Of a DNA stretch of 34,753 nt, positions 7,266 through 34,753 are shown one piece after another. Source of the DNA: a virus. The position numbers and the translations under genes are program-made. The DNA lies in IMG/VR virus record IMGVR_UViG_3300042887_000887, positions 1 to 34,753 of that record; one strand, written 5' to 3'. The notes beneath the pieces are model-generated. The model saw nothing but the letters and a program-made list of their open reading frames with translations. It made no database searches and was not told the DNA's origin. Position 1 is the stretch's first letter. Each line of letters starts with the position of its first letter.

Positions 7266-7300
7266 ATAAAAACTGTGGGGGGCTGAACGCCCCCCAACAG
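7266..7300 (-). terminator. Rho-independent terminator after the HTH gene
   Basis: On the minus strand a 7-bp G/C stem, GGGGGGC and GCCCCCC (7295-7289 and 7283-7277), surrounds a 5-nt loop. Three further pairs form across a bulge, and TTTTTATA follows. It closes the helix-turn-helix transcription unit and separates it from the operon to the left. Confidence 0.9.
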
Positions 7301-7696: not shown

Positions 7697-7725
7697 ATTA
7701 TAACCTAACAAGTGTACAAAGTAAA
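7697..7725 (-). promoter_or_regulatory. Strong sigma-70-type promoter of the HTH gene
   Basis: On the minus strand the -35 TTTACT (7725-7720), an exact 17-bp spacer and a perfect -10 TATAAT (7702-7697) precede a 71-nt leader. It sits in the gap to the left of the gene that ends at 7737. This is one of the best promoters in the window and is expected to be used early by host RNA polymerase. Confidence 0.8.
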
Positions 7726-8384: not shown

Positions 8385-9728
8385 TCACTCCTTCGCCGCA
8401 ACAATGATGCTAAGAGTATCAAGAACTCGTGCCCTGATGGCTTCCTCTGTGAGACCCTGCTTATAGAACTCATGAATCTCATCTACTGAGAATTCCACAG
8501 ACTCACCCTTGTATGAGAATCGTTCGGACAAAGTCAATTGGTTTTTCTCAATCGTTATATCATTCCAATTCACAACAGCAGGAGCAGGAGCAGGAGTTGC
8601 TTCCACGTCAACCTTCGTGTACAGATCCAAGAACGCATTCTTGGTATCACCATCGAATCGATTCAAGCACATCTCAATTGCCTTCAGACGATTATTGAAG
8701 ATAGAGAATGCTTTGGTGATATGCACAAGACGACGAGTCGAGATGACCTCATCAACCGCACCATCAGAGAAACTCTTGCGAATAACTTCAGCCCACGTGA
8801 TAAGACGATCAATGAACGTCTTATCTGTAATACCAAGAACAGCGAAATTCTTCTCAAGAATCTTGCGCTCGGTGCTGGCTGGCGGATACTCTTGCTCAAC
8901 AGTGATCGCGAAACGTTCCAGGAATGCTTCGTTGAGTAAATTGGTCCCGATGAATCGACCATCGTCGCTGCCCTTGCCCTTCGTGTTTGCAGTTGCAATC
9001 ACGTTGAATCCAGCAGCAGGATGGACAACTTCGCCAGTCTTTTTGTCAAAGTATGGCTTGCCTTCAAGAATCGGCTGCAAGCACAGAATGTCTTCCGTGC
9101 CGAGATCGCACTCGTCAAGAAGCAGCACAGCACCACGACGCATCGCAGTGATCACTGGTCCTTCACGACGCACAGTATTGCCATCGACCAACTCATAGGA
9201 ACCAATCAGATCAGACTCATCGGTGCGCTTCGTGATATTGACGCGGATCAACTCACGCTTCAACGCAGCGCAAACCTGCTCAATCATCATCGTCTTGCCG
9301 TTACCAGAAAGACCAGTGACATAGATGGGATAGAAGATGCGAGACTTAATGATGTCGCGCAAGTCATTATAGAAGCCAAACGGAACATATGTCTCGTTGT
9401 GCTCGGGAACAAATGATTCAGTTACATTTGTCGCACGACGAGAAGCAATATTTACAACTTGCGCAACCATCGCGGCAGCGGCAACAGGCTCAGATTGAAC
9501 CTGCTTCGGAGCAGTGGGAGTGACGCGACCAACATGCTTCGGAACGATGCTGAATTGACCGCGACCAACTTTGCGCTCTTTAGTGATGAAATACGGAAAA
9601 GGAATTTTCTTGAGTTTCACGTATGCGTGAAGTTCCTTTGCCGAAATTACATCTTTGTCGAAATGAGCAGTCATATTTTCAAGAAGAGTGCTCTTATCGG
9701 ACAAATTTGAATATGTAGACTTTTTCAT
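8385..9728 (-). CDS. AAA+ ATPase, CobS/MoxR-type
   Basis: From ATG 9726-9728 (an in-frame GTG at 9743 is the alternative) the protein has 447 residues. Numbered from that ATG: residues 1-70 form a basic N-terminal domain; a Pro/Ala/Val linker follows to about 95; then the AAA+ core. Motifs are Walker A GLSGNGKT (139-146), Walker B VLLLDE (201-206), sensor-1 VIATANT (243-249) with the CobS-like continuation KGKGSDDGRFIGTNLLNEAFLERF, which includes a candidate arginine finger (Arg272). A C-terminal domain of about 80 residues (340s to end) may bind a partner. CobS-like ATPases are widespread in aquatic T4-like phages, but there is no sign of cobalamin synthesis here. As in MoxR systems it is encoded near a VWA protein (10261-12534), so an ATP-driven remodelling pair is likely. 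Substrate unknown. Confidence 0.85.
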   Translation of the reverse strand: MKKSTYSNLSDKSTLLENMTAHFDKDVISAKELHAYVKLKKIPFPYFITKERKVGRGQFSIVPKHVGRVTPTAPKQVQSEPVAAAAMVAQVVNIASRRATNVTESFVPEHNETYVPFGFYNDLRDIIKSRIFYPIYVTGLSGNGKTMMIEQVCAALKRELIRVNITKRTDESDLIGSYELVDGNTVRREGPVITAMRRGAVLLLDECDLGTEDILCLQPILEGKPYFDKKTGEVVHPAAGFNVIATANTKGKGSDDGRFIGTNLLNEAFLERFAITVEQEYPPASTERKILEKNFAVLGITDKTFIDRLITWAEVIRKSFSDGAVDEVISTRRLVHITKAFSIFNNRLKAIEMCLNRFDGDTKNAFLDLYTKVDVEATPAPAPAVVNWNDITIEKNQLTLSERFSYKGESVEFSVDEIHEFYKQGLTEEAIRARVLDTLSIIVAAKE

Positions 9729-9749
9729 ATCAAAATCACTCACTGTAAA

Positions 9750-9959
9750 TTATTTAAGAACAAAACCCATATCATCAACAACACGATGAGGCGCAGCGGC
9801 AGTTACATAGCCTTCATCACCATCATCACACCGAACATAGATAACGTTCAAGTCGCCTTTTTCAAGTTTGAACGTGTCAAATTCCAACACACGCGCATTA
9901 CAGGCGGGAGTACCCAAAGACTCGCACGCTTCAACTTTTATGGAGTCATTTATTTTCAT
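9750..9959 (-). CDS. Small hypothetical protein
   Basis: The 69-residue protein begins MKINDSIKVEACESLGTPACN and is mostly beta in character (RVLEFDTFKLEKGDLNVIYVRCDDGDEGYVTAA), like a small barrel. I do not recognise the family. It starts one base after the stop of the preceding gene and ends 21 nt before the ATPase ATG, inside the VWA-ATPase block. Three cysteines are present but not in a zinc-ribbon spacing. Coding is supported by tight packing and codon use like its neighbours. Confidence 0.65.
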   Translation of the reverse strand: MKINDSIKVEACESLGTPACNARVLEFDTFKLEKGDLNVIYVRCDDGDEGYVTAAAPHRVVDDMGFVLK

Positions 9960-9960
9960 A

Positions 9961-10197
9961 TTACCAACCTTTCACCCAAGTAAGATTAGAAGGACCATCA
10001 CGACTAGGTTCAAGTTCAGGATACAAACGTTCATATTCAGCCATGTACGATTTACACAGTTCATACATAACTTCAGCCGAGATTTTATCATTATCAGACA
10101 AGTTCAATTCAGCGCGATTAGACACAGAATTAAAATCACGAACGATTATTTCAAGACGATTATAAGTTTCAGGAATAAAAGAGTTTTCACATTTCAT
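9961..10197 (-). CDS. Small hypothetical protein
   Basis: ATG 10195-10197 gives 78 residues beginning MKCENSFIPETYNRLE; a longer GTG start at 10221 would run back into the intergenic cassette. The product looks helical, with DNDKISAEVMYELCKSYMAEYERLYPEL in the middle and SRDGPSNLTWVKGW at the end. I do not recognise it. Its start lies in a 73-bp sequence that also occurs, diverged, at the start of the VWA gene, so the two genes may share a promoter type. Confidence 0.65.
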   Translation of the reverse strand: MKCENSFIPETYNRLEIIVRDFNSVSNRAELNLSDNDKISAEVMYELCKSYMAEYERLYPELEPSRDGPSNLTWVKGW

Positions 10198-10265
10198 AAG
10201 ACTATTATCGCTTAAAAACACAGGGAAAACAATAGAAAAAACCCTAATAGAATCAATAACTTACG
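10193..10265 (-). repeat. Intergenic cassette copy 1 (partner of 12530-12604)
   Basis: This 73-bp sequence begins ttcataagactatt and ends agaatcaataacttacg on the plus strand. Both ends are identical to those of the 75-bp sequence at 12530-12604, while the middle has diverged. It spans the end of the VWA gene, the gap and the start of the next gene. Minus-strand TTGTTT, an 18-bp spacer and GATAAT may act as a promoter; no convincing terminator stem is seen in this copy. Confidence 0.8.
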
Positions 10266-12534
10266 CCACCGCCAGTTCTTCGGCGAGTTTCGTGAGGAGG
10301 AGACGATTGCTCTTCTTGCTACCGACGTTCTTGGAGAACTCACGAGCCATCTTGTTCTTATTCATATCGCTGGTGATCGCAAGTTTGTCGTCAACGATGT
10401 TACTGTTCGGAAGAGCAACATAGAAATACTTGTCATAACCAAGACGATCAACAACAAAGTAATTGTGCTCGCGGAAAGTTTTCTTGGCAACATCTTGCTC
10501 AATAGCAGATTTGTCACTAACAAGATACTTCACATCACGCTGAATGGATTTTTTGTTACCAACATAGAAACCGATATGTTTGCAGCCAGTAATGTCAGCA
10601 ACCAACTGAGTGATTGCAGGTTGCATCGTATGGTAATTTGACAACTTGATTTTCTTTTTGGTCTTTTTGTCGATAAAATACACAACTGACTTGCGACGAT
10701 CGTCATAGAAACCAGAGTCGCTGCTCATCAGAGGATACGAAAGATTGCTGCCACCATCACCGTCAGTCAGATAGACAACGTTGCAAACATCCAACTGATG
10801 CTTATTCTGGAAAGCAGTAATGATTCCGCGAGAAGCAAGCAGAGTTTCGAGAAAAGGAGTGCTGTTCAAACCAAAGCCAGAAGTGTCCCAATCATATCGC
10901 CAGCCACCATGATCGTTTTCCTTGCAAGTGTAGTCATATGCACGACCATACTCATTCGCAACAACGCACATTGCATTGAACGCGCGACGATACTGGACAG
11001 GCGACAACGAAGAACCAATCAGATGCTTGAGATGAAACCAACTGCTGCTCATCGTCATGTCAACAGCACGATTAGACACGAAACGATCTTTGTTCACCAT
11101 CTCGCGCAACTTCTTGTTACCGTAAGCATCGTCGCTGAAGCCATAAACTTCAAACGGGACTTTGGCAAGTTTGCAGAAAGAAGCAAGCACAAGCATCTGA
11201 TCGATCGTGTTGCGAAGAATATCGCCCATCGAACCAGACATATCAACGAACATGATAAATCCATGGTTCTTGCCTTTCGGCACGACAGTGATCTTTTTGA
11301 ACAGATCGTTGCTGAATTTATACTTGTGCAGCACGTTCATGTTCAATTCGCCAGTGCGAGCAGTCTGTGTTCGAGCATACTCACTGGCTTTCTTGCGCAT
11401 CTCAAATTCTTTCAGGATATGCATGATGACTTTTTTGTTGTTCGTGTTGAACTTGCGAACACACTTCTGAACAACAGTGTCGTATGCAATACCGTGACGA
11501 CCATAGTTGCGATTCGGATCAGCAACTTGCTCGCGGAAGAATCGTTCAAGATCAGTCACAACTTCTGTGTTCGGAAGAATGATGTTCTCAAGAACAGCAT
11601 CAGGCAACTCATACATGAAGATTTTGCCAGTCTCGTTGACCAATTCCTGCTCGCGCTGGCGGAAATTGCGATCAGTTACAGACTGCGGTTCACCATCATC
11701 TTCTTGCTCTTCTTGATCTCCGCCACCAGAACTGTACTGATTTTCGTCAGTATCTTCATCATCAGACTCAGTTTGATCCTGCGAATCTTCAGCATCACTG
11801 CCGTCTGATTCTTCATCTAGGTCAGAGTCATCGTTACCATCGATGTCGTCTTCATAATCAGAATCATCGTCAGCATCATCGTACTCACCAGAATCTTGTT
11901 GATCCTGTTGACGCTCTTCTTGCATCTGTTCTTGAAGGTCTTGTTTATTTTGAATCTTGTCTTGCTCATTTTGTTTGGTGTAGTCGTACACACGTCGAGC
12001 AATGTCAACAACTTGACCCCAAGTTTCAGCAGCCTCAACTTCGCGAACGATGTCGCGTTCAAAGTCATTGAATTCAACAACGACATGCGAACCCATCTTG
12101 AATCGCAAGTTGATACGATCAACCAAAGTCAACTTGCTGAGGTCTCGCAGTTTCTTGATACCGAAGAAGTCACGCTCATATAATGACGCATATGCTCGAG
12201 CGAAAGACTTTGATAGCCCAGGAAACTTGCGTTTGATCAACTTTTCAATGCGCGCATCTTCGATAACATTCAAGAAGTCCTTGAACTTTTTATCTGTTTC
12301 GGTGACTTCATTGTGCCAACCTTGCGCTGGCGTGTTAAGAGCATGACCCACCTCATGACCTGTAAGCAAGTCATATAAGTCGCCGTCCATGTCCTTCCAT
12401 ACAGGAAGAACCATCGTGCGATTCTTGAGGTCGAAATATGCCGTCTTGACGTTTTGGTGTGAGACGGTGATGTTCTCGCTCGCCAAGAGTTTGGCAAGGA
12501 GCGATTTAGAATTTTGTAAATTAACGTGATTCAT
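10261..12534 (-). CDS. CobT-like protein: zinc-metallopeptidase motif plus von Willebrand A (VWA) domain
   Basis: The 757-residue protein has four parts. Residues 1-150 include HEVGHAL (60-66) and, downstream, NVIEDARIE (89-97), the pair of motifs of a gluzincin-type zinc peptidase with a Glu third ligand. Residues about 190-285 are a disordered, highly acidic linker of Asp, Glu, Ser and Gln. Residues about 290-410 are helical and basic. A VWA domain starts at HGFIMFVDMSGSMGD (424-438) with a complete MIDAS DxSxS (Asp431, Ser433, Ser435). Its length and layout resemble CobT-like VWA proteins that work with a CobS/MoxR-type AAA+ ATPase, and such an ATPase lies three genes on. Neither the peptidase activity nor any cobalt chelation role is shown. 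The gene has its own terminator-promoter region upstream and is bracketed by repeat cassettes. Confidence 0.85.
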   Translation of the reverse strand: MNHVNLQNSKSLLAKLLASENITVSHQNVKTAYFDLKNRTMVLPVWKDMDGDLYDLLTGHEVGHALNTPAQGWHNEVTETDKKFKDFLNVIEDARIEKLIKRKFPGLSKSFARAYASLYERDFFGIKKLRDLSKLTLVDRINLRFKMGSHVVVEFNDFERDIVREVEAAETWGQVVDIARRVYDYTKQNEQDKIQNKQDLQEQMQEERQQDQQDSGEYDDADDDSDYEDDIDGNDDSDLDEESDGSDAEDSQDQTESDDEDTDENQYSSGGGDQEEQEDDGEPQSVTDRNFRQREQELVNETGKIFMYELPDAVLENIILPNTEVVTDLERFFREQVADPNRNYGRHGIAYDTVVQKCVRKFNTNNKKVIMHILKEFEMRKKASEYARTQTARTGELNMNVLHKYKFSNDLFKKITVVPKGKNHGFIMFVDMSGSMGDILRNTIDQMLVLASFCKLAKVPFEVYGFSDDAYGNKKLREMVNKDRFVSNRAVDMTMSSSWFHLKHLIGSSLSPVQYRRAFNAMCVVANEYGRAYDYTCKENDHGGWRYDWDTSGFGLNSTPFLETLLASRGIITAFQNKHQLDVCNVVYLTDGDGGSNLSYPLMSSDSGFYDDRRKSVVYFIDKKTKKKIKLSNYHTMQPAITQLVADITGCKHIGFYVGNKKSIQRDVKYLVSDKSAIEQDVAKKTFREHNYFVVDRLGYDKYFYVALPNSNIVDDKLAITSDMNKNKMAREFSKNVGSKKSNRLLLTKLAEELAVA

Positions 12535-12540
12535 AAGACT

Positions 12541-12570
12541 ATTCTACCTTATAACATCACGAAAAAGCAA
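12541..12570 (-). promoter_or_regulatory. Possible promoter or ribosome-binding element of the VWA gene
   Basis: On the minus strand TTGCTT (12570-12565), an 18-bp spacer and TAGAAT (12546-12541) resemble the operon promoter at 7225-7253. Its start site would fall at the ATG, giving a leaderless transcript. The same bases contain TAAGG 12 nt before the ATG, which can pair with 16S rRNA, so part of this may be a ribosome-binding site instead. Confidence 0.4.
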
Positions 12571-12586
12571 GGGGTAAAACCCCCTT
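12562..12586 (-). terminator. Rho-independent terminator after peptide deformylase
   Basis: On the minus strand AAGGGG and CCCCTT form a 6-bp stem around a 6-nt loop and are followed by GCTTTTT. It lies directly after the deformylase stop and should end the gp47-gp46-deformylase transcript. Confidence 0.75.
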
Positions 12587-12591
12587 AAGAA

Positions 12592-13152
12592 TCAATAACT
12601 TACGACATCCCCCATTTTCTTGAGGTTCTTTTTCACTTTCTGCTTGGCTATATCTAGGGCAGCAGGACCAACCAAGGATGTGAATTTTACACCATTCAGG
12701 TGATCTAACTCATGTTGAAAGATGCGCGCAGTCAATCCATCAAACATGACATCTTTTGTGTTGCCATTCATTTCAGTGTATCGTACTTTAATTTTAAATG
12801 GTCGTTTTACTTTTAAATACAATCCAGGAAAACTCAAACAACCTTCGTGTACTGTTTCTTCACCTTCCGTTTCTAAGATCTCAGGATTGAAGCAAGCAAA
12901 GGCGACGTTTTGTGCACCCATAACAAAAACGCGATAAGGTAAACCAACCTGATTCGCCGCCAAACCAATACCTCGATTCTGTACCATAGTTTCAATTAAC
13001 GACACTGCCAAGTATCGTGGTGGTACTGGTGGGTTGTTGAAATCAAATGGTTCAGTTTTTTGAGCAAGAACATCAGAGTATGAATCTACAAAGTTGTAAA
13101 TTTCATATTCATACATTTGACCATCGACGAATTTAATTTTCTTATCAGACAT
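12592..13152 (-). CDS. def: Peptide deformylase
   Basis: ATG 13150-13152 with GAGGA upstream gives 186 residues (MSDKKIKFV); a longer reading to 13197 overlaps gp46 and is rejected. All three deformylase motifs are present: GIGLAANQ (motif 1), EGCLS (motif 2, with the metal-binding Cys) and QHELDH (motif 3, HExDH). The enzyme removes the formyl group from nascent protein N-termini in the cytoplasm and binds Fe or Zn. Phage versions, common in aquatic myoviruses, usually lack the C-terminal helix of host enzymes; here about 25 residues follow HELDH-NGVKFTSLVG, ending in a short basic tail. It may speed maturation of phage or host proteins during infection. The gene follows gp46 by 10 nt and ends at a terminator. 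Confidence 0.95.
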   Translation of the reverse strand: MSDKKIKFVDGQMYEYEIYNFVDSYSDVLAQKTEPFDFNNPPVPPRYLAVSLIETMVQNRGIGLAANQVGLPYRVFVMGAQNVAFACFNPEILETEGEETVHEGCLSFPGLYLKVKRPFKIKVRYTEMNGNTKDVMFDGLTARIFQHELDHLNGVKFTSLVGPAALDIAKQKVKKNLKKMGDVVSY

Positions 13153-13162
13153 AATTTTATCC

Positions 13163-14866
13163 TCAAGCAAGAACAGAGAAGCCCTTGCGCTTTTCAAATT
13201 TCAAGATATTCTTAAACTTATCGTGTAAACTATCTTTGTGCGATATAACAAAGATATTTGTATTATCTGGTAACGTATTTAAAATCTGCAGTAATGACTC
13301 TGTACCGTTTGCGTCCAAACTTGAATCGAACACTTCGTCTAGCAATAAGATATTTGTGTTGATACTGTTCTTCATTTTAGCGATTGCACGCCAAGTAAAG
13401 AGCAAGGACAAGTCGATCTTCTGCTTCTCACCTTCAGAGAAGTTTTCATAACTAAAATCATCTCGGTGACGCGACTTGATACTTTCTTTAAATTCTTCAT
13501 CAATCTCAAAATTAACAAAGAAGTTCATAGAAGCCAGATACTTGTTTACCAACTTGTTGATGATAGGAAGGTATTGTTTTACAATCTTCGCCTTGATACC
13601 GCTATCCTTCAACAAGAAAGCGGCAACTTCGATATATTTCTTACGATCAATCAAAACGCCTTTGTCAGCTTGCAGCTTCGTTAGTGCATCATATAGTTCT
13701 TGAGAGATATTCATCATATCGTCACTCAAGACCTTCTTGTTCTTTAGATCTTCTATTTCTTTTTCAAGTTTCTTAACATACTTTTTAATTTGTGTATGAG
13801 ACGCATTAATCCTTGTAATCTCTGACTGATGCGCAAGAATGTTCTTGTTGATGGTTTCAATGTTATTGATTCTCTGTAAAACGGCATCTTGTTGTTCCTT
13901 GAGTTTAGTCATGCCGTCTTGAAGATCAATCATTTTTGTGTTGTACTGGCTGATCTTTTCTTCTTTATTATTGATCTGTTGATCGCAAGTAGGGCATGTA
14001 TCGTTATTATTAAAGAAGTCGATATCTTTTTGTAACTTGGTTATGTTGTTATCAATCTTGGCTTCGAACTGAGAAAGTTTCTTGTTCTTATCTTTTACAG
14101 TTTTTTCGTCAGCGACTGTGTTAAGTAATGCGTCGACGTGCTTCTGAATCAATTCAGAATCTTTTTCAAGTTTCTCTAATTGATCTTGATTCTCTTTCAA
14201 CTCTTGTTCTTTCAGTTCAATTTGATCTTGATTGTTCTTTTTCGCTTCTTCGATATACTTCTTTTGCATATCAATTTGCGCAACGGTCGATTCAATATCG
14301 GCTTTGAGTTTAACTGCGCTTGTCTTCAATGTGTTGTTTCTTTCTTTTACGATTTGATTCATCGCAGAGAAAATTTGAATATCGAGCAAGTCTTCGATAA
14401 TTGCGCGACGATCGGCAGCCGATAACTGCATGAACGGAACAAACGATGAACTACCCAGAATGACAATCTGAGTGAACGCTTTATAGTTAAATTTCAGAAT
14501 GTGCTTTTCGAGGAAGTCTTGATAATCTTTAGACTTTGCGTCTTGATCTAGTAACTCACCATCACAATAGATTTCAAAGATGTTTGGTTTCAGACCACGA
14601 ATAATCTTATAGTCTTTCGAGTAGCATTTGAATTCAACTTCGACAACGCAGTCGCGACCGTTGACTGAGTTGATAATCTGTGGTTTGTTAATGTTGCGGA
14701 ATGGTTTACCAAATAACGCAAACGTGATGGCGTCAAGAATAGTGGATTTACCTGCACCGTTCTCGCCAATGATTAGAGTTTGCTCTTCTTTCTGTAAAGA
14801 AATTTCGGTAAAGATATTACCAGCAGAAAGAAAGTTTTTATAACGAATCAGTTTAAATGTTGTCAT
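13163..14866 (-). CDS. 46: Recombination endonuclease subunit gp46 (SbcC/Rad50-like)
   Basis: The 567-residue SMC-like ATPase has Walker A GENGAGKST (34-42), a long coiled coil (about 170-400), and a zinc hook CPTC near residue 290 at the coil apex. The ABC signature FSEGEKQKIDLSLLF and Walker B NILLLDEVFDSSLD lie near the C-terminus. It pairs with gp47 to resect DNA ends for recombination-dependent replication and to help degrade host DNA. The ATG overlaps the gp47 stop by 4 nt (ATGA), so the two subunits are translationally coupled. Length is close to T4 gp46 (560). Confidence 0.97.
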   Translation of the reverse strand: MTTFKLIRYKNFLSAGNIFTEISLQKEEQTLIIGENGAGKSTILDAITFALFGKPFRNINKPQIINSVNGRDCVVEVEFKCYSKDYKIIRGLKPNIFEIYCDGELLDQDAKSKDYQDFLEKHILKFNYKAFTQIVILGSSSFVPFMQLSAADRRAIIEDLLDIQIFSAMNQIVKERNNTLKTSAVKLKADIESTVAQIDMQKKYIEEAKKNNQDQIELKEQELKENQDQLEKLEKDSELIQKHVDALLNTVADEKTVKDKNKKLSQFEAKIDNNITKLQKDIDFFNNNDTCPTCDQQINNKEEKISQYNTKMIDLQDGMTKLKEQQDAVLQRINNIETINKNILAHQSEITRINASHTQIKKYVKKLEKEIEDLKNKKVLSDDMMNISQELYDALTKLQADKGVLIDRKKYIEVAAFLLKDSGIKAKIVKQYLPIINKLVNKYLASMNFFVNFEIDEEFKESIKSRHRDDFSYENFSEGEKQKIDLSLLFTWRAIAKMKNSINTNILLLDEVFDSSLDANGTESLLQILNTLPDNTNIFVISHKDSLHDKFKNILKFEKRKGFSVLA

Positions 14867-31822: not shown

Positions 31823-31830
31823 TATTTATA
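31823..31830 (-). promoter_or_regulatory. T4-type late promoter TATAAATA before the LamG gene
   Basis: A perfect minus-strand octamer in the 43-nt gap between the two LamG genes, 21 nt before the ATG. It would drive LamG-gp16-gp17 as one transcript. Confidence 0.75.
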
Positions 31831-31845
31831 GTGTAATAAAAACAT

Positions 31846-32583
31846 TTAAATTTCGTAAGTATCTTTAACTGCATTGTAATTCTGGGTTATCTCAGCACCA
31901 GACAATGCTCTGTTATACGCCCGCATCTGATAAAAAACTGGATATAGTGCGGAATTTGAGTTGTTTAGTGTATCTCCTCCAAAACCTATACCGTTATTAT
32001 TATGCCTTGCCCCAAAATAAAAATCATTTGTCGCAAAGAGTGTTTGATTACCAATAGTATCAGTTGTTCCAACTTGTGAACCATTTAAAAATAGACTAAT
32101 TTGTGTGCCATTGATAACAAAAATCCAATGTCTTATAGCATTACTTTCGGTTATGGTTACTGGAACTTCACCATTTGGGCTACCATAATATAAATTTGTT
32201 GAATTATCCATATATGCTAGGTATCCACCGCTAGTATCATAAATTTCATTACCCCAAATAGCTCCCCAAAATGATGTTGGATTAAATGAAGCAACTACCT
32301 CAATTGTTACAGTATTTGAAGCAATATTATAAGGAACACTAATATAATCCGTACCATTTGAATTCTCATTGTTTAGTCTTATGCCACCACCATTGTTTGA
32401 TACATACGATGGAGAACCTAAAAGTGTTGCATTACGACCATTGCCACTAGAATCAGTCCATGTAGTTCCAGATATTGGTGCAGTTTCTAAATTGAATTGC
32501 AAACCTGAAGTTACGATACCTGCTGGCAATAGTGGGTTTCCACGACGACCAAAGGAAAATGAACCGCTAAATGAACTGAGCAT
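31846..32583 (-). CDS. Structural protein with one LamG/concanavalin-A-like domain
   Basis: This is a 245-residue protein with the same N-terminal tag as its neighbour ([16 protein letters not shown]). It has one LamG-like unit: GLQFNLETAPISGTTWTDSSGNGRNATL, TVTIEVVASFNPTS, HWIFVINGTQISLFLNGSQVGTTDT, and the closing YNRALSGAEITQNYNAVKDTY. The shared tag and ending show that the two genes are paralogs, likely by duplication. The tag may attach both to a common virion site. The ATG overlaps the fibre stop by one base (TAATG). Confidence 0.85.
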   Translation of the reverse strand: MLSSFSGSFSFGRRGNPLLPAGIVTSGLQFNLETAPISGTTWTDSSGNGRNATLLGSPSYVSNNGGGIRLNNENSNGTDYISVPYNIASNTVTIEVVASFNPTSFWGAIWGNEIYDTSGGYLAYMDNSTNLYYGSPNGEVPVTITESNAIRHWIFVINGTQISLFLNGSQVGTTDTIGNQTLFATNDFYFGARHNNNGIGFGGDTLNNSNSALYPVFYQMRAYNRALSGAEITQNYNAVKDTYEI

Positions 32584-34753
32584 TATCCAAATGTGGTCAA
32601 TTGACCAAGAGTGATAAATGTTCCATTATTGTTCACAACACTGAAAGAAATTACATCCTTCTTGTTTGCATTTCCTGCTGGTGCAGTTGTGCTTCCTTGC
32701 CAATTAACAGTTTGCGCTACGCCACCAATTTGCACAAGATTCGCAACATATGCGGTTGAACTCTGATTGATGACAAGAGTGAATGCAGTTGCAGTATTTG
32801 CAGGAATTGTTACGTCGGTGAAATTTGCAGTGAAGTTTGCACTCACGCTTGAGTGTACAAATATATGACCTAATGCACAATTATGTGTGACTGTTCCAGT
32901 TGCACTTGATAATGCATTCGTTGTTTCAATTACTTCTTTGACATTTAATATATTAACTGTAGGATTTGCAGTAAATGCTGTTGTTTGTGTAGTGCTATCT
33001 GGGAACACTAAAGAGCCATTGTCTTTGAAATCCCAAACTTTATTGTAACTTTGTAGTTTGACGGATCCACTAGCATCAATCAAAATTTCATCATTGTCGT
33101 CATTGTTGGCTTCAATGTGAAGTCTTGTTGATTCACCAATTACAGGATACCATTTTATACTTGCAATGTCTCCACTGCCACCACCTGGATCGCTAGGGAA
33201 TATGATACCATCGTTTGCTGTATTTCCTGATGTTGGATATACCGCTATTGGCCAAGAGATATTTGCTCCAGATGCACCTTGAACACCTTGAGCGCCTTGA
33301 GCGCCAGCAGTACCCTGAGCGCCTTGTGGACCAACATCACTGATGTTGATTGTTCCAGCCATTGATGAATGAAATTGACACACATAATACAATGTGCTTG
33401 GCGCATTATAAGGAACAGCGAATGTTATTGTTCCGACAGCAGCACCACCATTCGTTACACCAGAGCTGTATATACTTCCAGAGGAATAAGCACCAGAAAC
33501 TGTTTGAATCCAGAAAGGATGACCGGAAGCATTTACACTAAATTGATAAGTAAATCCACGCAGTAAATTAAGAGTTGGATTGCTAGAACCATCGATTGAA
33601 TATGCACCAGCACCAACATTCGTAACTGTGTATGTTCTTGCGCCTAATGCACCCTGTACACCTTGTGCTCCTTGCGCTCCTTGGGCACCGACGGCACCTT
33701 GAGCACCAGTTCCTGTTGCTCCTTGAACACCTTGAGCACCAGTTGTGCCTTGTGCTCCAACTTCTCCTTGGGCACCGACGGCACCTTGAGCACCAGTTCC
33801 TGTTGCTCCTTGAACACCTTGTGCGCCTACATCACCTTGTGGACCAGCTGCACCTTGAGCACCAGTTCCTGTTGCTCCTTGAACACCTTGTGCGCCTACA
33901 TCACCTTGTGGACCAGCTGCACCTTGAGCACCAGTTCCTGTTGCTCCTTGAACACCTTGTGCGCCTACATCACCTTGTGGACCAGCTGCACCTTGAGTGC
34001 CAGCTCCCGTTGCTCCTTGAACGCCTTGTGCTCCTTGTGCACCTTGTGCGCCAATTTCACCTTTGTCGCTAGTTAAACCTTGTGCGCCTTGAACCCCAAC
34101 TTCTCCTTTACTGCCAACAGCACCTTGTACACCTTGTGCTCCGACATCACCTTTTGTGCCTTTTTCTCCTTTATCGCCAATATCACCCGTGAATGCTGTA
34201 GTTTGAATTGTGTTATCTGGAAATTTTATAGCGCCATTAGCATTAAAATCCCATAGACTAGGACCAGCGTTACCACCATTTTGTCCTACTGCTATTCTAA
34301 CAATACCTGATCCTGAAGTAGGATTAACATATACTGCCGCTATGTTACTAGTGCCGACGTTGTCAATATCTTCTACCCAAAGACTTGATACACCACCATT
34401 GCTACCACTTGATATTGATAGTAATGGTAGATTAGGATTTGATTGTAATAATGCAACATTTGATCCAAATACATTTGTAAGACCATTGATTACTAGATTG
34501 CCTGGCAATGTTAGATTACCATCTGTGTCAAATGTCCACATAGCATTACTACTATTACCATCATTACTGTTGATAATAACATTACCTGTGTTTGCTAACT
34601 TAACATAGAAGTTATCACTACCTAAGAACAACTCGGTTGCATACAAGTTTCCACTTGTCATATGTATATGGTCACCGTCAGCCGCTGTTGGATATATTAA
34701 TAACTGTTGATTGGCAGTAGTTCCACCTATTGGTTTTAAAGCAATAGCACTAC
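32583..34753 (-). CDS. Collagen-like fibre protein with a cupredoxin-like insert (partial; N-terminus outside window)
   Basis: The frame stays open to the right edge of the window, so ATG 34661 is internal and the true start is outside. About 723 residues are visible. In order: a beta-rich part with [13 protein letters not shown] and [12 protein letters not shown]; a Gly-X-Y collagen-like run ([16 protein letters not shown] onward, about 180 residues) with exact 23-residue repeats; a cupredoxin-like domain (SGHPFWI ... [12 protein letters not shown]); a second short Gly-X-Y run; a beta part with [12 protein letters not shown]; and a C-terminal domain ending [21 protein letters not shown]. The make-up fits a trimeric fibre in the tail or neck. 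Similar modular fibres occur in aquatic T4-like phages. Host receptor unknown. Confidence 0.85.
33782..34027 (-). repeat. 69-bp tandem repeats in the collagen-like region
   Basis: Copies start at 33782, 33851 and 33920; a diverged partial copy starts at 33989. Each codes for 23 residues, [23 protein letters not shown] with small changes. A related unit begins at 33695, 87 bp away, so an 18-bp insertion separates it. Near identity of the copies indicates recent expansion. Confidence 0.9.

Follow-up and report, generated by a model that had tools for sequence, protein, structure and literature searches.

Dispersed candidate promoter cassettes with an IHF-consensus box and predicted leaderless starts at gene junctions of T4-like phages

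The Mu early promoter and lambda pL are IHF-assisted phage promoters, each of them single, lambda cI transcribed from PRM is a leaderless phage mRNA, and the H' site of lambda attP is an IHF site with an A-tract. The binding consensus of IHF is WATCARNNNNTTR, and an A-tract, on the same side as in copy A of the repeat described below, accompanies most of the strongest IHF sites (PMC8421141). The PeSLs of T4-type phages are summarized in PMC4503421 (citing Arbiol 2010; Comeau 2014) as composite elements, an early promoter plus a stem-loop terminator, that spread and shuffle genes. The two repeats on either side of a vwa gene that are analysed here share features with each of these systems, and probably belong to a family of self-contained promoter cassettes of the early type that are dispersed, IHF-assisted, leaderless and located at gene junctions. 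The features that appear to set the cassette apart are the IHF box and the predicted leaderless start; no earlier description of an IHF/leaderless promoter family of T4-like phages was found in the searchable literature.

The window, i.e. the whole stretch of DNA that was analysed, is a 34.8-kb (34,753 nt) fragment of a T4-like phage that encodes gp23, the portal protein gp20 and the terminase. The minus strand carries its main genes. The initial annotation reported a direct repeat on both sides of vwa, and this pair is indeed present, with the 14-mer TTCATAAGACTATT at 10193 and 12530 and the 17-mer AGAATCAATAACTTACG at 10249 and 12588 (Table 1). The repeat is not due to chance: allowing up to 2 mismatches, the 14-mer has a chance expectation of 0.57, and the 17-mer, allowing up to 3, one of 0.20. 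The 17-mer is the sole repeated 17-mer of the window outside the collagen-like repeats (33.3–34.1 kb), and a collinear pair of repeated 14-mers appeared in none of 200 Markov shuffles. The collagen-like tail-fibre gene itself (32583–34661) contains long in-register DNA repeats at 33277–33980. As also proposed, the shared 17-mer is read in different frames, its core providing the TAA stop of vwa (10261–10263, minus strand) and the TGA stop of def (12592–12594), whereas the 14-mer contains the ATG of vwa (12534) and that of the next gene (10197). The view of the repeat as a regulatory cassette conserved at the DNA level is likewise borne out, and the search for further copies found many in viral contigs.

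Table 1. Features of the two cassettes and of the adjacent genes in the window.
Feature	Position	Strand	Remarks
Cassette A	10193..10265	-	between vwa and orf78
IHF-consensus core A	10251..10263	-	sense TAAGTTATTGATT, + strand AATCAATAACTTA; its TAA is the vwa stop codon
T-tract, copy A (A-tract on + strand)	10236..10241	-	9 nt from core
-35-like TTGTTT, copy A	10227..10232	-	
-10-like GATAAT, copy A	10204..10209	-	spacer 17 nt; ATG 6 nt further
Cassette B	12530..12604	-	between def and vwa
IHF-consensus core B	12590..12602	-	includes def TGA stop (12592-12594)
-35-like TTGCTT, copy B	12565..12570	-	
-10-like TAGAAT, copy B	12541..12546	-	spacer 18 nt; ATG 6 nt further
Terminator-like hairpin in copy B	12568..12587	-	AAGGGG/CCCCTT then TTTTT; not a feature of the family
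orf69, small gene	9750..9959	-	variable among relatives
orf78, small gene	9961..10197	-	starts with cassette A ATG; in window and L015, absent from other relatives examined
vwa	10261..12534	-	PHROG 459, annotated peptidase; predicted leaderless start at 12534
def, peptide deformylase	12592..13197	-	upstream neighbour of cassette B
CobS-like AAA ATPase	8385..9743	-	directly behind cassette in most relatives

When read in the sense of the genes, copy A has the order CG-TAAGTTATTGATT-CTATTAGGG-TTTTTT-CTA-TTGTTT-N17-GATAAT-AGTCTT-ATG and copy B the order CG-TAAGTTATTGATT-CTTAAGGGGGTTTTACCCC-TTGCTT-N18-TAGAAT-AGTCTT-ATG, the T run of the latter being shorter (4 nt, 10 nt from the core). On this strand, the 14-mer consists of the end of a sigma70-type -10 element, six further bases and the ATG, and the diverged centres of the two copies correspond to the stretch before the -35 plus the promoter spacer. 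Judged by this layout, the two conserved ends of the repeat are the halves of a single putative promoter.

Altogether, 183 distinct cassettes of ~75 bases were collected, dispersed through a group of T4-like phages; the family counts are biased because the set was gathered with a regular expression for the core, and the 17-mer or a 28-mer served to retrieve many of the loci. A fairer set consists of the loci fetched by the vwa protein together with the relative G001, for which the motif played no part in fetching. Exact-pattern scans of viral contigs yielded over 100 stretches with the 17-mer and 13 stretches in which both ends occur together, every match being 68 bases long. The 28-nt family pattern is found in 117 stretches of viral contigs versus 3 in 257 Gb of prokaryote genomes; the same cassette was also sought in host genomes, and none of these 3 pattern matches then showed the promoter layout. 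Among cultured phages, none with the full cassette was found. The Achromobacter phages L274 and L273 carry an IHF core and T-tract that are near-identical to those of the cassette, without the promoter, and the ART record of these phages has a gene annotated as an integrase nearby.

The deployment of the cassettes can be gleaned from two large relatives, G001 (173 kb) with ~13 cassettes and G002 (197 kb) with ~14, all in the direction of the genes. The core occurs 10 and 11 times in relatives, compared with 0 for a control motif; in each of four records, its copies are confined to one strand (10/0, 11/0, 0/3 and 0/8), which in G001 and G002 is the main coding strand. In most cassettes, the -35 starts 31–32 nt and the -10 starts 53–55 nt from the start of the core, and the core includes the preceding gene's stop codon in 103 of 223 cassettes. 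The genes behind the cassettes of G001 and G002 mostly encode proteins of 60–125 aa, and vwa is among them in both genomes; in addition, one cassette of G001 (7314) is located immediately upstream of a tRNA cluster, and some cassettes in the two genomes contain tandem IHF boxes 28 bp apart. The -10 and the ATG make up part of the conserved sequence, so similar ends could in principle arise at two unrelated genes by convergence under promoter and start-codon constraints. This is hardly credible given that the 17-mer lies outside the -35 and -10 elements, that the core recurs across many contigs and ~13–14 times per genome in the two large relatives, and that the family pattern is nearly absent from bacterial genomes.

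Both cores in the window match the IHF consensus exactly over 13 bp. In copy A and in the family, an A-tract is found at ~8–9 nt on the left side of the core, the longest T run beginning 8–9 nt past the core in 142 of the 183 cassettes, as does the A-tract of strong sites. In the loci fetched by the vwa protein, 33 of 36 promoters carry the IHF consensus, 32 of them at the family offset, as do 9 of the 10 promoters of the cassette type in G001; the backwards control motif was found in none of the promoters of either set. Genome-wide, the consensus is not enriched in G001 (38 observed versus 42 expected), and the intergenic matches are all cassettes (9 in G001 and 10 in G002). The exact consensus with an A-tract ~9 nt away is the arrangement of IHF sites such as lambda attP H' (layout as in PMC8421141), but here, unlike in that attachment site, the box is embedded in a repeated sigma70 promoter cassette. 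Similarly, the placement of an IHF site upstream of a sigma70 early promoter is shared with the Mu early promoter and lambda pL, from which the cassettes differ in forming a repeated family (~13–14 per genome) and in the location of the core at about -59.

IHF binding at the cassette cores would account for this pattern; alternatively, another protein (a phage activator or a different host factor) could bind the core, or the T-tract at about -40 could serve as an UP element, the IHF match being incidental. That reading is on the whole unlikely, although the orientation of the core is fixed within the family and the four free core positions are mostly GTTA, i.e. conserved beyond the need of IHF, so that shared ancestry or a different binding protein may play a part. 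Against it stand the exact 13-bp consensus with a correctly placed A-tract and the clustering of substitutions at positions that IHF leaves free: across 47 sites, there are 2 changes at the nine fixed positions versus 15 at the four free ones. Moreover, sequences that differ from the family core yet fit the IHF consensus lie a short way upstream of strong sigma70 promoters in two distant relatives, G005 and G007, and occur in both orientations; in G007, they flank vwa. The two flanking 13-mers of G007 (127810 and 130102; L039 relative) are perfect reverse complements, and a 12/12 sigma70 promoter follows closely behind each.

The distance between the -10 and the start codon is nearly invariant. 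In 119 of the 183 cassettes, an ATG follows the -10 at 6 nt (103) or 7 nt (16), with none at 4, 5, 8 or 9 nt, and 100 of these 119 ATGs open a frame of at least 40 codons; among the remaining cassettes, many have ATA where the ATG stands (37/163). The position predicted as +1 is an A in 153 of the 183. Because the -10 is fixed 6–7 nt before the ATG, the rules for sigma70 promoters place the predicted +1 at the A of the ATG, and leaderless transcripts are predicted because an ATG so positioned is almost always without a Shine-Dalgarno sequence (8/119, versus 29/58 in the leadered cassettes, i.e. in half of these, where it lies further down). The genes behind the cassettes appear, by the position of the -10, to be leaderless, with the ATG no more than a few nt from the predicted +1 and no Shine-Dalgarno sequence before it. 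The homologues of vwa begin at the same place as vwa (12534), which supports this start of the gene. Lambda cI from PRM has the same arrangement, an ATG at the predicted +1 without a Shine-Dalgarno sequence; the difference is that here the leaderless state would be the usual one for a whole promoter family.

The initial annotation interpreted the repeats as PeSLs, and this holds for the dispersed promoter cassette at variable gene junctions but not for a conserved stem-loop; the exact IHF consensus and the constant distance from -10 to ATG had escaped it. An early-type promoter repeated at gene junctions is found here, as recognized from its sequence elements, and the adjacent genes are shuffled, at least as an association, in which respects the cassettes resemble PeSLs as these are described in the summary cited above. 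Relative to that description, the cassettes add an IHF-type box and an ATG at a fixed position of the leaderless type, and have no conserved stem-loop: only 18 of the 183 have even a 4-bp stem between the core and the -35, and the mean folding z is -0.8. Although variable small genes adjoin the dispersed cassettes and copy B contains a terminator-like hairpin, most cassettes are without a stem-loop; this part of the proposal is largely refuted, and it is improbable that the cassettes are T4-type PeSLs, composites of an early promoter and a stem-loop terminator that drive shuffling. As the defining stem-loop is missing, they are not classed as PeSLs.

A different role for RNA structure would be a switch in which the conserved ends form a stem in read-through mRNA, masking the start codon. 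Both copies in the window allow CGUAAG to pair with CUUAUG, but the CTTA that is needed is present in just 34 of the 183 cassettes, copy A folds barely better than its shuffles (z -0.75), the 3' arm varies freely while the 5' arm is constant across cassettes, and a leaderless transcript would be without the 5' arm. Such a switch is extremely improbable.

With regard to gene exchange, ~40 close relatives have vwa between def and cobS, and where the contig reaches far enough, nearly all have a cassette on each side of vwa; in L030 and L041, an insert separates vwa from the following cassette. In L030, a gene of ~430 aa at 8397–9698, between vwa and cobS, resembles the PAP2/vanadium haloperoxidase type by eye. 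The def–vwa interval of the relatives is either empty or holds a small gene, which has its own cassette or overlaps def, and the vwa–cobS interval contains nothing, orf69, orf78 plus orf69, another gene of 62 aa or larger inserts. In G001, homologous small genes (MKxYYEV) lie behind cassettes at two places. The suggestion that vwa itself was gained or can be lost between the copies found no support, every close relative with a contig covering the site keeping vwa between cassettes, albeit in a sample where genomes without vwa could be missed because the relatives were found through vwa. What remains of the proposed recombination around vwa is the exchange of alleles, a junction in one of the copies and the flux of small genes.

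For sbcC and cobS, the window groups with L015 as its sister (100/100), which does not hold for vwa; a clade of their vwa genes is rejected by the AU test (p 0.0019). In the spacer of cassette A, the window resembles L010/L017 and L015 resembles L012, whereas orf78 behind this cassette is 98.7% identical between the window and L015, which places one junction near the -10/ATG end of cassette A. From these comparisons, vwa alleles have recombined, with one apparent junction within the 3' cassette (A). A 5' breakpoint at cassette B was considered and rejected, as it falls inside vwa instead. The cassettes may promote recombination rather than merely tolerate it.

Under the cassette model, the unit fills the gap between two genes and would operate as follows. 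First comes the putative IHF site, consensus plus T-tract, which often would double as the stop codon of the upstream gene; next come the sigma70 -35 and -10, typically ending at an ATG 6–7 nt past the -10 that would also be the transcription start. Host IHF would bend the DNA at about -59 and thereby aid the firing of host RNA polymerase, and a leaderless mRNA would serve for translation of the downstream gene. Being short, conserved and placed where genes meet, the cassette could let recombination swap or insert small genes and leave the neighbours unbroken. A wider reading, whose prospects are slightly short of even, is that a lytic T4-like lineage placed a set of early genes under host IHF and leaderless mRNAs, with stop, switch and start fused into a single plug-in joint for exchange. 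If transcription starts at the first codon, neighbouring genes could be swapped, each retaining its own switch, which would provide T4-like phages with a well-defined joint for exchanging genes as modules, one that can be put to the test. The model predicts a host nucleoid protein gating a gene set in a lytic phage, as well as widespread leaderless translation of cassette-driven genes, and the cassette offers a DNA signature to recognize and annotate small genes, probably early ones, in contigs of uncultured viruses.

Betaproteobacteria possess IHF. The relative G001 (173 kb) encodes a permuted tmRNA of the betaproteobacterial type (L234:12763–13127; Rfam RF01850, 118 bits; ARAGORN tag ANDDSFTPMALAA), and this one tmRNA suggests a betaproteobacterial, IHF-bearing host. 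A cyanobacterial host, considered on account of some gp23 and terminase neighbours, was rejected: psbA is absent in eight records, and one has the beta-type tmRNA. A phage-encoded IHF/HU gene was found in none of seven related records.

The promoter activity and early timing of the cassettes are likely from their sequence elements. T4-type late promoter words (TATAAATA) occur in the window at 31830, 24408 and 22709 (minus strand), on the gene-sense strand only, and the cassettes, set beside these words, suggest a separate, earlier class. The window also contains a strong terminator-like hairpin, TGGGGGGCGTTCAGCCCCCCA, at 7276–7296, and near it a promoter-like TTTACT-17-TATAAT (7697–7725) without an IHF box.
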